Part shown: positions 6,575 through 19,600 of the stretch, in pieces | Layout: the number at the start of each line of letters is the position of its first letter | Position numbering within the stretch: position 1 is the stretch's first letter | Assembly (NCBI GenBank): GCA_030148805.1 | Contig: JASBSS010000008.1 | Coordinates: 1-46,815, forward strand | Direction: 5' to 3' | Length of the DNA stretch: 46,815 nucleotides | Source of the DNA: Thiogranum sp. | Lineage (GTDB): Bacteria; Pseudomonadota; Gammaproteobacteria; DSM-19610 | Notes under the pieces: model-generated | What the model saw: only the letters and a program-made list of their open reading frames with translations | What the model was told of the DNA's origin: nothing | Database searches by the model: none | Position numbers and translations under genes: made by a program

Positions 6575-7247
6575 AGGGGCCGTGACGATGGCGGTCATGA
6601 TAGTGCATGCGATAGTGCGTGAAACGCTCCAGATCGTCGAAATGCAGAAACGGATTACCCTCGACCTGTTCTCCCAGCGTGGAGGTCGGTTGTCGCGCGT
6701 AATTGTGGCCGGGCAGTATCAGCGTCTGTGCCGGCAGTTTTTCCTGCATGTCGTTGAGGGTATGAAACATCTGCTCCGGATCCCCGCCGCGCAGGTCGCA
6801 ACGGCCGCAACCGAAGACAAACAAGGTGTCTCCGGTAATCAGCTGGTCGCCGACCTTGTAGCAAGCGGAACCCGGGGTATGGCCGGGCGTGTGCAGCACT
6901 TCGATCACCGTGTCCCCCAATTGAATCCGATCACCGCCATGATGGAGGGTGGGAAGATCCAGATACGAACCCCAAAAGCGCGCCTCTTTCTTCAGCAGGT
7001 GCAACTGGGCGTCGTAACGATCCAGCAAGGCCGCGACGCCGTTGACATGGTCGTGGTGGCTGTGGGTGAGCAGAATATCGCTGATACGCACCCCGCGCTC
7101 GGCGGCCAATTGCACGATCGCCGGAACATCCCAGGCGGGATCGACCACCGCCGCCGTGCCGCTGGCACGATCCTCGATCAAATAGATGAAATTCTCCATC
7201 GGGCCCAGTTCCAGGGAATGAATCGCGTGCGGGGTGGAATCTGACAT
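6537..7247 (-). CDS. Metallo-beta-lactamase-fold hydrolase (glyoxalase II / persulfide dioxygenase-like)
   Basis: 236 residues with the full MBL-fold metal set: THSHHDHVNG (HxHxDH), HTPGHTPGS, GDTLFVFGCGRCD with its bridging Asp, and PGHNYA. This arrangement is shared by hydroxyacylglutathione hydrolases (GloB) and ETHE1-like persulfide dioxygenases; substrate cannot be separated by eye. The C-terminal tail HYRMHYHDRHRHG is unusually His-rich. The ATG at 7247 follows AGGAG by eight bases. It is downstream of a VOC gene by 16 bases and overlaps the start of mug, so the three form an operon. The VOC/MBL pairing resembles a glyoxalase I/II module, which is only suggestive. Confidence 0.88.
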   Translation of the reverse strand: MSDSTPHAIHSLELGPMENFIYLIEDRASGTAAVVDPAWDVPAIVQLAAERGVRISDILLTHSHHDHVNGVAALLDRYDAQLHLLKKEARFWGSYLDLPTLHHGGDRIQLGDTVIEVLHTPGHTPGSACYKVGDQLITGDTLFVFGCGRCDLRGGDPEQMFHTLNDMQEKLPAQTLILPGHNYARQPTSTLGEQVEGNPFLHFDDLERFTHYRMHYHDRHRHGPYGPVRKGDEMPA

Positions 7248-14182: not shown

Positions 14183-14584
14183 TCAGCCTTTGGAGCCGGA
14201 CATATCCCAGCTGAAGGAACAATCCAGGTAGGAGCGCACCGAGATCAGACCGACGATACCGTCCTCCACCATGGTGGCGACAGGGGTTCGTTGACGAAAC
14301 TTGCGGTTGGGCTTGTGCATCCACAGGCGGCCCATGCGCTTGCTGAACGGATAGGTGGTGCGCAACGCGTCGGCGATACTGATCAGATGCTCTACCCGCT
14401 TCATGACATCCGGTTCATCGGGTAGGGGACGATTCTCCCGCAGACGTTTGACTTCGCGGGCAGGCGCGTCATCCAGGCCAAGCAGGACCAGCTGGTCCTT
14501 GGCCTCGATTTCCCACTCGTCGAGCATGTCCAAAATGCCACGCGTCAGTTCCAGCCGCTCGTCTTCTGTCATGCTGCTGCTCAT
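14183..14584 (-). CDS. MbcA/ParS/Xre-type antitoxin-like (DUF2384) protein without a RES toxin
   Basis: 133 residues. The N-terminal part (LTRGILDMLDEWEIEAKDQL) and VMKRVEHLISIADALRTTYP resemble the helical core of MbcA/ParS/Xre antitoxin proteins. The C-terminal RTPVATMVEDGIVGLISVRSYLD matches the toxin-binding tail of that family, where 'P...m..G..gl..V...L' is typical. The partner in known systems is a RES-domain NAD-degrading toxin, and none is adjacent. GAGG stands eight bases before the ATG. It may be a stand-alone regulator or pair with the downstream zinc-ribbon protein. Confidence 0.75.
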   Translation of the reverse strand: MSSSMTEDERLELTRGILDMLDEWEIEAKDQLVLLGLDDAPAREVKRLRENRPLPDEPDVMKRVEHLISIADALRTTYPFSKRMGRLWMHKPNRKFRQRTPVATMVEDGIVGLISVRSYLDCSFSWDMSGSKG

Positions 14585-15111: not shown

Positions 15112-15351
15112 ATGCCATACTACATTTTCAAAGTCATTCCAGGCCCTACCAGCCTGATGAAAAATCTGGAAAAAATAGAACAGCACGAAACCTTCAAGGA
15201 AGCCAAGCTACGCGCTCGCGCCATGCGCGCCGAGTCCGGCGACGACGCCGGCGCGCAGATCAAGATCATGTTTGCGGAAAACGAGTTGGAGGCGGAGGAG
15301 AAACTGCAGGAAAAACGCGAACAGCCGATTCTGCGCGAATGGGAAAAATAG
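15112..15351 (+). CDS. Conserved small charged protein, unknown function
   Basis: 79 residues, no cysteine. A short beta-like start (MPYYIFKVIPGPTSLMKNLE) is followed by a long, highly charged helix (EQHETFKEAKLRARAMRAES, then ENELEAEEKLQEKREQP). Cytoplasmic and probably helical or coiled-coil. It lies under a perfect extended -10 promoter and is followed after 9 bases by the cysteine-rich gene, so the two are an operon. Confidence 0.75.
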   Translation: MPYYIFKVIPGPTSLMKNLEKIEQHETFKEAKLRARAMRAESGDDAGAQIKIMFAENELEAEEKLQEKREQPILREWEK

Positions 15352-15360
15352 CCTTCTCCC

Positions 15361-15819
15361 ATGGTCGAGGAAGATAAATTCCGCGCCACCTACAAGCGCA
15401 TCAACGAACGCATGTGTGTGTTCGAAAAAGCGATCCTCAGCCGCCGCTGCGCCTGCCTCTGCGCCACCCGTTTTTATCTGGCCGATCGCGAGGGCGTGGC
15501 CTGTGACTCCGCCCCCGCCCACCGACGCTGCCTGCGACTGATCGTCTTGCTGCGGGAGAACGCCAAGTTCGCGTTGAAACTCAAGGCGATCGACGGCGAA
15601 TTGCCGCACGGCAAGGAACTCAAAATACAAAATGGCGGTTTACTGGGGCTGCAACGGGTATTGCGCCCGGATCTCAGCGCCGACACCGTGGTGGATGTCG
15701 CCGGGCTCGCCACCTTGGGCGAACGCACCTACGGCTCGCTGGAGGAGCTGCCCTACCGGGAAATCGTCAAGACTGTCGTCGCCTTCGAGGGCCGTCGGCG
15801 CCCCCGCTCCAAACGCTAG
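15361..15819 (+). CDS. Cysteine-rich 152-aa protein of unknown function
   Basis: Six cysteines are confined to the N-terminal third: C19, C30, C32, C34, C48 and C57, the middle ones as CACLC. The rest is cysteine-free, with a helical RLIVLLRENAKFALKLKAID and a C-terminal LPYREIVKTVVAFEGRR. The spacing would suit a metal or Fe-S cluster, but it matches no family I recognise. The start at 15361 lacks a clear Shine-Dalgarno apart from GCC-TTCTCCC context; translational coupling to the gene 9 bases upstream is likely. Confidence 0.7.
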   Translation: MVEEDKFRATYKRINERMCVFEKAILSRRCACLCATRFYLADREGVACDSAPAHRRCLRLIVLLRENAKFALKLKAIDGELPHGKELKIQNGGLLGLQRVLRPDLSADTVVDVAGLATLGERTYGSLEELPYREIVKTVVAFEGRRRPRSKR

Positions 15820-15965: not shown

Positions 15966-16820
15966 ATGGAAATCGAAGCGTTTCCCGACGAATCGCGCAC
16001 CTGGACCGTCACCTACGTGGTCTACGATGCAGACAGCAAAGACGCCGTGGTGATCGACCCGGTGCTGGATCTGGATGTCACACCCTGGCGCACTTCCACC
16101 GAGTCGATCGATCATCTTGCTGATTTCATTAAGCTTAAACAGCTCTCGGTGCACTGGATTCTGGATACCCACGTGCACGCCGATCACATCACCGGCGCCA
16201 GCGAATTGAAAAAACGGCTGCGCGCCCCGATGGCTATCGGCGGCGAGATCCGGCGTGTACAGGAGGTATTCAAGCAGGCTTTCAACTTCGGTGACAATTT
16301 CCGCGCCGACGGCAGTCAGTTCGACCGCCTGTTGCACGACGGCGACGTGCTCGACGCCGGCCGCCTTAAAGTCAACGTGCTGCACACCCCGGGGCACACG
16401 CCCGCCTGTTGCACCTATCACATCGGTGATGCCTTGTTCTGCGGCGACGTGCTCTTCATGCCGGATATCGGCGTGGCACGCTGCGATTTTCCGGGCGGCA
16501 GCCCCGAAGATCTCTACCGTTCGGTCAAACGGCTCTACAGCTTCCCCCATAGTACCCGCGTGATGGTGGGACACGACTATCCCGATAAACGGGAGTTCCA
16601 GTACCAGACCACGATCGGCCAAAGCAAGGCCTTCAACTGCGACCTGCCCAACAGCATCTCGGAGGCCGATTTCGTGGCCCGCATCCGCCAGCGCGACAGC
16701 CTGCTGCCCGCACCGCGCCTGTTGTTTCCCAGTTTGCAGGTCAATATCAACGCCGGCGAGTTGCCCGAGCCGGAAAACAACGAGGTGGCCTATTTAAAAG
16801 TGCCCCTGAATTACCTGTAA
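15966..16820 (+). CDS. Metallo-beta-lactamase-fold persulfide dioxygenase-like protein
   Basis: 284 residues. MBL-fold motifs are complete: DTHVHADHITG (HxHxDH), HTPGHTPACCTY, FCGDVLFMPDIGVARCDFPGG, and VMVGHDYP. The FMPDxGxxRxDFPGG block and the long C-terminal part with LPAPRLLFPSLQVNINAGEL are those of the ETHE1/Blh-like branch, whose members oxidise glutathione persulfide to sulfite with Fe(II). The catalytic role is inferred from family. AAAGGT precedes the ATG. It is followed after 43 bases by the cNMP/rhodanese fusion gene, whose rhodanese domain also handles persulfide, so the pair likely shares a sulfane-sulfur substrate. Confidence 0.88.
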   Translation: MEIEAFPDESRTWTVTYVVYDADSKDAVVIDPVLDLDVTPWRTSTESIDHLADFIKLKQLSVHWILDTHVHADHITGASELKKRLRAPMAIGGEIRRVQEVFKQAFNFGDNFRADGSQFDRLLHDGDVLDAGRLKVNVLHTPGHTPACCTYHIGDALFCGDVLFMPDIGVARCDFPGGSPEDLYRSVKRLYSFPHSTRVMVGHDYPDKREFQYQTTIGQSKAFNCDLPNSISEADFVARIRQRDSLLPAPRLLFPSLQVNINAGELPEPENNEVAYLKVPLNYL

Positions 16821-16863
16821 AGCCGCTCGAGTTCGCAGCCGCAGCCCCAAGAGACGACGCCTC

Positions 16864-17964
16864 ATGATTAGCATCAAGCTCACACGAGTGCTGGAGAATC
16901 TGTCCTCGCACTACATGCCCTTCACGCTATTGTCACGCGAACGCCTGTCCGAGGTGGTGAACATCGTACGCTTCATGGAACTGCGCGAAGGCGAGATCAT
17001 GCAGATCCGCGGCAGCTCGGCCAATGACTATCTGTACGTGGTGGAAGGGCATCTGGAAGTCATCCAGCGCGGTTCGATCCGCTCGTTCACCGGCCCTGAG
17101 GATACCCGCAACCGCCCCTTCATTCTGCCGAGCGCACCGGCGACCGCCACCATCGTGGCGCGACAGAATTCGATCGTCTGCCACGCCGACCGCGCGATGC
17201 TGGACAACCTGATCGCCTGGGATGAAATGGTCCACCTCAGCGAGGACACCGACAGCGAACTGCACGACCGCCTCGAACTGGTCCGCAACTCGCTGGTATT
17301 CCGTCGCCTGCCGCTGGAACTGGTGGAGAGCGCCTTCAAACGCATGGAGATCCGCACGGTGTCGTGTGGCGAGGACATCATCCGCATGGGCGACGACGGC
17401 GACGCCTACTACATCATCAGTCGCGGCACGGCTGAAACCTATCAGCTCGGCCTGTACGACGACGAACCCTCCAAAGTCGCCGATCTGGCCGCGGGCGATG
17501 CCTTTGGTTGCGAGGCGCTGATCTCGGGCAACAAGCGCTGCGAGACGGTGCGCGCCACCAGCGACTGCACCCTGCTGGTACTCAACCGCGAAGCCTTCGA
17601 CGATCTGATCAAGACGCCGCTGATAAAAACCGTGCACCCGAATATCGCCCGTACCATGATGGAGACCGGCTACAAGCTGCTGGACGTGCGTTACGCCGAG
17701 GAATTCGACGATCACCATATCCCCGGCGCCATTCTCATGCCACTATACGAGGTGCGCAATCGCCTGGAAGAACTGGACAGGCGGCAACGGTATATTGTCT
17801 ACTGCCACGCAGGCGGACGCAGCGCCGTCGCCACGCTGATCCTCAATCAGAACCAATTTGATGTGGTCAGCCTCGAGGGCGGCATCCGCGACTGGCCGTT
17901 CGAAACCACCTCGGTGGTGGACACGGTGGAGGAATCCACGAGACAGGCAGTAAACGCCAAATAG
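16864..17964 (+). CDS. Fusion: two cyclic-nucleotide-binding domains plus rhodanese domain
   Basis: 366 residues, no transmembrane segment. The first cNMP-type beta-roll spans roughly 20-125 (REGEIMQIRGSSANDYLYVV), the second 145-250 (CGEDIIRMGDDGDAYYIISR, then LAAGDAFGCEALISGNKRCE). The classical FGExAL-x9-R-S/T-A phosphate cassette is changed to FGCEALISGNKRCETVRA in domain two and absent in domain one, so the ligand is uncertain. The C-terminal rhodanese domain (about 265-350) has LLDVRYAEEFDDHHIPGAI and the active loop YCHAGGRSA with Cys314, a six-residue loop suited to sulfur rather than phosphate. It follows the persulfide-dioxygenase-like gene by 43 bases. Confidence 0.9.
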   Translation: MISIKLTRVLENLSSHYMPFTLLSRERLSEVVNIVRFMELREGEIMQIRGSSANDYLYVVEGHLEVIQRGSIRSFTGPEDTRNRPFILPSAPATATIVARQNSIVCHADRAMLDNLIAWDEMVHLSEDTDSELHDRLELVRNSLVFRRLPLELVESAFKRMEIRTVSCGEDIIRMGDDGDAYYIISRGTAETYQLGLYDDEPSKVADLAAGDAFGCEALISGNKRCETVRATSDCTLLVLNREAFDDLIKTPLIKTVHPNIARTMMETGYKLLDVRYAEEFDDHHIPGAILMPLYEVRNRLEELDRRQRYIVYCHAGGRSAVATLILNQNQFDVVSLEGGIRDWPFETTSVVDTVEESTRQAVNAK

Positions 17965-18010: not shown

Positions 18011-18229
18011 ATTAACGACCCGCTGACAAACGAAGAAATCGAGGCCCTGCGCCAGCAACTGGACGAACTGCGCCTGGAGCACCGCGATCTGGACGACGTC
18101 ATCGGCCACCTCGGTCAAGCGGCCTATCCGGACCCCTTGCAGCTCAGACGACTGAAAAAGCGCAAGCTGCGACTGAAAGACATGATCCAACGGATCGAAA
18201 GCCGACTGATCCCGGACATCGACGCCTGA
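18011..18229 (+). CDS. YdcH/DUF465-like small coiled-coil protein with probable ATT start
   Basis: 72 residues: NDPLTNEEIEALRQQLDELR, then LEHRDLDDVIGHLGQAAYPD and LQLRRLKKRKLRLKDMIQRI. This is the family pattern of YdcH/DUF465: heptad leucines, HRxLDxxI, and LKKrKLxLKDxI. Function is unknown. The reading frame is closed by TAG at 17993 and contains no ATG, GTG or TTG before the conserved region. An ATT at 18011 sits eight bases after a good AGGAG (17998-18002), so ATT is the most likely initiator. It follows the cNMP/rhodanese gene by 46 bases. Its stop abuts the stop of the convergent gene (TGA|TCA). Confidence 0.85.
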   Translation: MNDPLTNEEIEALRQQLDELRLEHRDLDDVIGHLGQAAYPDPLQLRRLKKRKLRLKDMIQRIESRLIPDIDA

Positions 18230-18986: not shown

Positions 18987-19406
18987 TCAATCCTCAAAGG
19001 CCGGGAATTCGCGCGCGAATTTTCGAATCCACTCCCGCGCCGCCTGTTCGCTGTCCAGGCGGCGCCCCTCGTTCGCCAGCACCTCCGTGCGGTATTGTTC
19101 GATATGACAGAGCTGTTCGATCATGCGCATCTGGAACAACTCTTGCTCATCCGTGAATGCCACCCCCACGAGGAAATTCTCCCCGTCCCGATGACACCAG
19201 GCGACGCGGGCGCGGGCACTGAATTCCGGCTCCACCGCCGCAATACGGATCACCAGACGACAACCGGGCGGCAGCGAACGCGCGCAGACAAATGCCAGCC
19301 CCCCGCCGCCAACGTCCCTGAGGTGCTCCTGGCACAGTGGCGTGCCGTCGTCATCTATTTGATATTCCATGGGTATCCCCGATGGATGACGGATGTACCT
19401 ACGCAT
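18987..19406 (-). CDS. PilZ-domain protein
   Basis: About 139 residues. The c-di-GMP motif RxxxR is present at the very N-terminus as RRYIR. The second motif, normally (D/N)xSxxG, reads DVGGGGLAF with Gly in place of Ser. The barrel continues with PPGCRLVIRIAAVEPEFSAR and VAWCHRDGENFLVGVAFTDE, typical PilZ strands. The C-terminal helix (EQEL to EFPAFED) is extra. It probably is a c-di-GMP effector for motility, attachment or secretion, with binding uncertain because of the substitution. The ATG at 19406 and a TTG at 19412 are both possible; AAGGA lies 11 and 5 bases before them respectively. Confidence 0.82.
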   Translation of the reverse strand: MRRYIRHPSGIPMEYQIDDDGTPLCQEHLRDVGGGGLAFVCARSLPPGCRLVIRIAAVEPEFSARARVAWCHRDGENFLVGVAFTDEQELFQMRMIEQLCHIEQYRTEVLANEGRRLDSEQAAREWIRKFAREFPAFED

Positions 19407-19600
19407 AAGCAACCCATTCCTTTGCTCTTCGGCGCTGTTCCAGAAGTGTAGACCGCGCGCGCCGGATGGTCTCTGCCGGGGATACGGCCGCGGCGCGAAG
19501 AGCTAAACAGCGATCCGGGCAGGGCGGGCGCAAAATGTGCGCCAGCGCCAAAAACCGCTGATGTGATTCAACTATTGTCGCCAGCTGACGCTAATCGGTA

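Follow-up and report, generated by a model that had tools for sequence, protein, structure and literature searches.

A persulfide dioxygenase-like gene and a tandem cyclic-nucleotide-binding–rhodanese gene form a candidate sulfane-sulfur module in Thiogranum

We analysed a 46,815-nucleotide stretch of a Thiogranum sp. genome (GCA_030148805.1, contig JASBSS010000008.1, positions 1 to 46,815; hereafter the window), in which two complete open reading frames (ORFs) with ATG starts follow one another on the forward strand. The first (15966–16820, +; 284 residues) encodes a persulfide dioxygenase-like hydrolase (PDO). The second (16864–17964, +; 366 residues) encodes a protein in which two cyclic-nucleotide-binding (CNB) domains precede a rhodanese domain, here called CNR. 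Only 43 nucleotides (16821–16863, +) separate the PDO stop codon from the CNR start. Our preferred reading, held with moderate confidence, is that the two genes constitute a regulated, cytosolic sulfane-sulfur module of a probable sulfur-oxidizing gammaproteobacterium, and that the CNB pair is probably no classical cyclic AMP (cAMP) sensor.

In the proposed scheme, Cys314 of the CNR rhodanese would be charged with a sulfane sulfur, whose donor could be thiosulfate, a low-molecular-weight persulfide or a persulfide on another protein. CNR would hand this sulfur on, in the simplest case to glutathione or a thiol like it, feeding the thiol cofactor of PDO; the persulfide so formed would then be oxidized by PDO to sulfite, with O2. 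As a regulatory part, the tandem CNB domains would set rhodanese activity or partner access; in the window's clade of CNRs the signal would probably be a small ligand other than classical cAMP, or else the state of Cys216. Elsewhere, CNB–CNB–rhodanese proteins would control SulP transporters and other sulfur proteins, either fused to them or encoded nearby. In the chemistry known for these families, sulfane sulfur is carried by the rhodanese cysteine (PMC8533005), and PDO forms sulfite from glutathione persulfide and O2 (PMC12856154); an SQR–PDO–rhodanese route has also been described (PMC13047784). The sequences themselves show how the domains are arranged, which motifs are kept, that the genes adjoin and diverge in parallel, and what fusions and gene groups exist in the wider family; the two enzyme activities, the cytosolic setting, the course of sulfur transfer, the regulation and the kind of ligand are inferred.

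The first-pass annotation had described the upstream enzyme as ETHE1-like and persulfide dioxygenase-like. The second description holds, and the protein lies nearer to type II PDOs than to ETHE1. It matches Pfam Lactamase_B (E = 1.1e-20), and among solved structures it comes closest to 4ysk (E = 7.1e-81; 4ysk/4ysl is P. putida PpPDO2), 9g8t (E = 1.2e-80) and 4efz (E = 1.3e-80), against a far weaker match to human ETHE1 (4chl; E = 1.1e-19). By similarity, the window hydrolase is a type II persulfide dioxygenase. The metal-site motifs of these enzymes, HxHxDH, PGHT and GD, are intact in the window protein as THVHADH, PGHTP and CGD (H69-V-H71-A-D73-H74, H144 and D161). The NCBIfam model Blh, a bifunctional sulfur transferase/dioxygenase, matches residues 4–284 (E = 1.6e-93), with a score of 313.9 bits that lies below the model's 625-bit cut-off and with model positions 145–423 only being covered.

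The residues aligned with the reported glutathione contacts differ at one position in the window PDO. In the P. aeruginosa enzyme PaPDO, Arg174, Arg244 and Arg247 are reported to contact glutathione (PMC12856154). We take 9g8t to be PaPDO because the code appears three times in that paper and, by our count, its arginine numbers fit the chain. Arg172 and Arg243 of the window PDO are the equivalents of Arg174 and Arg247, so that both are kept, and Ile240 (codon 16683–16685, +) falls in the column of Arg244, which is Arg in both solved enzymes compared. The window PDO is like the type II enzymes (4ysk/4ysl; PaPDO, PMC12856154) in its full-length match (E ~1e-80), metal-site motifs and two of the three glutathione-contact arginines, and unlike 4ysk and 9g8t in this Ile and in having a CNR gene directly downstream. 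Across 40 distinct PDO loci the Arg244 column contains Arg in 27, Ile in 11, Ala in 1 and Met in 1. The replacement of Arg244 by Ile hints at a changed thiol partner. Nine of the Ile loci carry CNR and two lack an intact one; these 11 form one group of close relatives and may reflect one event. We do not claim that the Ile co-evolved with CNR, because the Ile-bearing PDOs are so closely related, because two of them stand without an intact CNR, and because the related PDOs with Ala or Met (L101 and L102), which have no CNR match nearby, lack the Arg too. A second, distant metallo-beta-lactamase-fold stretch, ~30% identical to PDO, lies elsewhere in the window (6654–7184, −).

The domain make-up of CNR is as the first-pass annotation had it: two cNMP-type domains joined to a rhodanese with an intact CHAGGR loop. 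Pfam places cNMP_binding on two stretches (E = 3.4e-22) and Rhodanese on one (E = 3.8e-16). CNB1 comprises residues ~1–130 (16864–17253, +), CNB2 residues ~131–255 (17254–17628, +; best cNMP_binding match 164–250) and the rhodanese domain residues ~256–350 (17629–17913, +), the active loop being residues 314–319 (17803–17820, +) with Cys314 and Arg319 at its ends. Rhodanese loops are described as having six residues, with Cys first and mostly Arg, Thr or Ser last, and the loop-end Arg as being required for thiosulfate use in yeast RDL2 (PMC8533005); CHAGGR has this form. Both end residues are invariant in eight of eight aligned CNR sequences, in which Cys106, Cys216 and Cys314 are the only invariant cysteines. 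The NCBIfam match NF041163 is restricted to the CNB2 part, and none of the 20 NCBIfam matches names a CNB–CNB–rhodanese architecture. A CRP/FNR-type regulator was considered and rejected: a rhodanese follows CNB2, and no helix-turn-helix family is present among Pfam matches up to E 0.1.

The CNB domains of CNR depart from the classical nucleotide pocket. The canonical phosphate-binding cassette is Gly-Glu...Arg, the Glu of classical CNB domains binding ribose. The cassette of CNB2, FGCEALISGNKRCET (residues 214–228; 17503–17547, +), keeps Gly215 and Arg225 and has Cys216 at the Glu position. CNB1 has no cassette, either in the window protein (residues 78–95, PEDTRNRPFILPSAPATA) or in the aligned family rows. 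Neither domain therefore carries the complete motif, which bears out the earlier description of a cassette altered in domain two and absent from domain one. CNB1 despite this still looks like a CNB fold: residues 10–252 of CNR are matched in one stretch by the trypanosome PKA regulatory subunit 6ftf (whole-sequence E = 9.3e-9). A structure model built from eight sequences (pLDDT 68.5, pTM 0.52, much of the rhodanese part being poor) aligns in Foldseek to tandem CNB proteins, with a best E of 1.5e-18. The beta-roll fold is seen by Pfam and by Foldseek, the latter with low TM-scores; since the rows shown have query-normalized TM values of 0.25–0.34 and root mean square deviations of ~14–24, the packing of the domains is unsupported.

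The two genes are found together repeatedly. Nine genomes have CNR immediately after PDO (G000, the window's own, and G412, G413, G406, G407, G405, G399, G532 and G641), with 37–49 nucleotides between the last sense codon of PDO and the CNR start. For these nine related pairs, a small sample, the PDO and CNR distance matrices are correlated (rho 0.85; of 5000 label permutations, 4 gave a value as high). G532 and G641 both bear the family label f202; among the nine pairs G641 is nearest to G399 in both proteins, and G532 is nearest to G405 in PDO (0.26) and to G407 and G405 in CNR (0.18 each). That both genes depart from family labels in like manner suggests that they were transferred, or retained, together. 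The CNR of a further locus, L009, is 94% identical to that of the window. Spread on plasmids was considered and set aside, none of 240 plasmid records with a match covering 80% of CNR. At a contig end in G398 (L082:7178–7853) a PDO piece abuts broken CNR pieces, either a pseudogene or an assembly error.

CNR belongs to a much wider family. Relatives at E ≤ 1e-25 occur in 124 of 274 genomes sampled from the window's class; in the same kind of draw, PDO relatives at E ≤ 1e-50 occur in 43 of 274. Among the CNR matches listed, most cover the CNB and rhodanese parts and some are partial, and the open frames that bear them are mostly ~350 to ~2000 residues long. We built a tree with FastTree only, rooted at the midpoint, from 93 distinct rows that remained of 147 frames once identical or contained segments were dropped; the rows are weighted to the best-scoring matches (at most 30 loci per search), and two frames, both belonging to the reductase fusion of G570, were excluded for matching fewer than 270 profile positions. 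The window CNR falls in a 36-row half (support 100) together with SulP-fused rows and an operon-like group from a second class. The other 57 rows comprise stand-alone and long forms, two of them with a verified FGE domain. Within the tree the window's own clade has 18 rows.

Across these 93 rows, 91 retain the rhodanese Cys and 90 the loop-end Arg, an indication that rhodanese catalysis is under selection. In CNB2, the Gly is kept in all 93 rows and the Arg in 90. The Glu position is occupied by Glu in 75 rows, Cys in 15, Asp in two and Ser in one; all 18 rows without Glu make up the window's clade, and Cys is found at this position in none of the other 75.

Several observations weigh against the module. 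Shared ancestry alone could yield the parallel divergence of PDO and CNR. Nine of the 18 members of the window's CNR clade have no adjacent PDO: L014, L015 (Thiohalobacter thiocyanaticus), G219, the second copy of G411, both copies of G547, G505, G602 (where the ~1 kb covered upstream is enough to reveal a PDO at the usual spacing) and G637. A search at E ≤ 1e-20 turned up no PDO in the genomes of L014, L015 and G219. In G547 a PDO occurs elsewhere in the genome (53%), and a distant metallo-beta-lactamase gene near one CNR (31% identity) was not counted as PDO. The Cys216 change is also seen in clade members that lack PDO and is thus not tied to pairing; the swap of Glu for Cys predates the pairing or is independent of it. 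Conversely, in G404 (88% complete) the PDO, preceded by the usual ORF, lies on a 3.4-kb contig that carries no CNR, and a search of that genome found no window-type CNR, only a 28% relative. In G411 (L074:3611–4756) an intact PDO is followed by a rhodanese remnant with the loop CHAGGC and no CNB part. Because G404 and G411 carry it without an intact CNR, PDO does not need CNR. Two further points concern the host genome, which encodes dsrA above the curated cut-off (E = 5.5e-199) and a class I adenylate cyclase (E = 4.5e-133). The former fits a sulfur-metabolizing host such as Thiogranum and does not by itself show an oxidative direction of sulfur flow. The latter, found where a search for class III cyclases found none, means that cAMP can exist in the cell and could be the signal.

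The pairing is therefore real and repeated, but not obligatory. PDO is present at E ≤ 1e-30 in 13 of 20 genomes of the order, and in G401, G403, G409 and G410, where it is 51–56% identical, no CNR match lies on the flanking stretches examined. The first-pass annotation had offered co-conservation as a check on its proposal, scattering of the genes being the adverse outcome; adjacency in nine genomes speaks for the proposal, while the unpaired half of the clade and the G404 and G411 exceptions go the other way. It is rather unlikely, in our judgement, that PDO and CNR are merely co-inherited neighbours and that CNR's partners are other sulfur-transfer proteins. Such an arrangement would account for the unpaired half of the clade, for the PDOs of G404 and G411 and for Thiohalobacter, in which an Xre/MbcA-type gene directly precedes CNR with no PDO between (the order in G641 is Xre/MbcA-type gene, PDO, CNR), but it sits poorly with the tight spacing in nine genomes, the parallel divergence and the shared departure from family labels.

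The pocket residues bear on the nature of the signal. Quite improbable is a classical cAMP-gated sulfurtransferase in which CNB2 binds cAMP via Gly215 and Arg225. The cyclase and the retention of Arg225 are in its favour, as are the 75 of 93 family rows with Glu, which resemble the cNMP cassette; Cys216 at the Glu position and the lack of a cassette in CNB1 oppose it. Moreover, trypanosome PKA subunits with the same tandem fold are, by the titles of their entries, cAMP-independent, one of them being guanosine-bound (6hyq), so tandem CNB pairs can take other ligands. Since CNB1 lacks a cassette and CNB2 has Cys for Glu with Gly and Arg kept, a signal other than classical cAMP is probable in the window's clade, for which cAMP sensing is disfavoured; in the Glu-bearing majority of the family it may occur. 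The earlier proposal of a sulfane-sulfur module with a gate of non-cAMP type fits the adjacency, the parallel divergence, the conserved rhodanese site, the missing CNB1 cassette and the Cys, Asp or Ser of the clade, with the qualification that pairing is not obligatory.

Outside the pair, CNB–CNB–rhodanese units recur in larger proteins, some of them sulfate transporters. Pfam scans of nine long CNR-type proteins identified three SulP–STAS–CNB–rhodanese proteins of 885–954 residues (L163, L166 and L167), one coenzyme A-disulfide-reductase-like protein (L157), which has a single CNB and two rhodanese stretches, and five with N-terminal CNB and rhodanese and no further domain above the cut-off. 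SulP was detected by phmmer in the CNR frames of G533, G590, G667, G458, G451 and G644. In the second class, CNR occurs at E ≤ 1e-25 in 5 of 48 genomes, and all five loci encode SulP and a SoxA/TsdA-type cytochrome c, four of them also a DsrE-like protein (Pfam was run on one of these loci, L079). A CNR-type match occurs in each of the 20 genomes of the order, in 16 of them within an open frame of at least 1100 residues. In the window's own genome, the sole other near-full-length relative found is a 1539-residue paralogue (L083:7699–12318; G000:C13), in which CNB–CNB–rhodanese is followed by a long coiled coil and a membrane helix, both recognized by eye, and, at the C-terminus, an FGE-sulfatase-type domain (Pfam E = 2.1e-51). 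CNB–CNB–rhodanese is a common, unnamed family with repeated ties to sulfur proteins, a membership that the first-pass annotation missed.

The SulP fusions favour a regulatory role over that of a bulk enzyme, and for this reason we keep as a serious rival, possible if on the unlikely side, that CNR is a sensor and not a catalyst. Persulfidation of Cys314 would be the input, Cys216 and Cys106 further thiols, and the CNB pair would relay the signal to PDO or to a fused SulP. A rhodanese tethered to every SulP subunit would resemble a control part more than a bulk enzyme. The confinement of the invariant cysteines to these three positions, and of Cys216 to 15 of 18 clade rows and 0 of 75 others, would suit a thiol sensor, but the near-universal Arg and Cys of the rhodanese loop suit turnover, and three clade rows have Asp or Ser in place of Cys216. 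The rhodanese Cys is Ser in two rows (L139 in G520 and L140 in G631), each beside a second CNR gene with an intact Cys, which likewise tells against sensing by that residue. These Ser-bearing frames are parts of long frames resembling SulP fusions, in which SulP itself is unverified.

A broader proposal, which we put forward tentatively and consider unlikely, is that CNB–CNB–rhodanese is a widespread sulfane-sulfur signalling module with the rhodanese as receptor and the CNB pair as transmitter, fused to transporters, reductases and dioxygenases or encoded next to them, and that Cys216 makes the nucleotide pocket of the window's clade a thiol switch.

The regulated PDO–CNR module that we prefer has partial parallels among known systems. 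PDO–rhodanese fusions (BpPRF, 5ve3–5ve5; S. aureus CstB; cable bacteria Rho-PDO, PMC13047784) likewise combine a PDO with a single rhodanese in one functional unit. Unlike in these fusions, PDO and rhodanese are on separate ORFs in the window, 43 nucleotides apart, and the rhodanese bears two CNB domains. Tandem CNB proteins (PKA regulatory subunits, PKG and the trypanosome cAMP-independent PKA-R) have two CNB folds in series as CNR does; CNR differs from them in having no kinase, a rhodanese as third domain, no cassette in CNB1 and Cys for Glu in CNB2. Family 2 encapsulin operons (PMC8346489) bring together cNMP-type domains (2B shells) and rhodaneses (2A cysteine-desulfurase operons) in one wider system, for which cNMP-dependent control has been suggested; unlike in these operons, neither shell nor cargo was seen at the window locus.

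CNR may belong to a sulfur-control module that is widespread and so far unstudied. Rhodaneses are, to our knowledge, generally regarded as sulfur carriers without regulation. Gating of sulfur transfer by the CNB part, if it occurs, would link second-messenger-type or thiol signals to persulfide oxidation and, via the SulP fusions, to anion transport too. The replacement of Glu by Cys in CNR and of Arg by Ile in its partner PDO are precise and cheap points for mutational tests. Our literature search found no account of a CNB–rhodanese protein, of CNB with PDO or of a SulP–rhodanese protein, in a survey that left most subscription papers uncovered, so that an earlier mention is possible.

The surroundings of the pair are partly conserved. 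Upstream of PDO lies a 152-residue ORF (15361–15819, +) with no Pfam match at E 0.01, which has an equivalent in the same position in six other compared loci. It is preceded by a 79-residue ORF (15112–15351, +); a similar ORF lies upstream of PDO in G412 and G405, the G412 protein having no Pfam match. An Xre/MbcA/ParS C-terminal-domain protein is encoded at 14183–14584 (−), and proteins of this kind are also found near CNR in Thiohalobacter, NAT125 and G641. Between 15000 and 18400, five terminator-like sites were found, none of them inside the 43-nucleotide gap between PDO and CNR, and a promoter scan, which carries little weight at ~60% GC, returned no sigma-70-like site. Downstream of CNR there is a DUF465 open frame (18011–18229, +) whose start codon is unsettled and, a few genes further on, a PilZ-domain protein (18987–19412, −), a possible reader of cyclic di-GMP.

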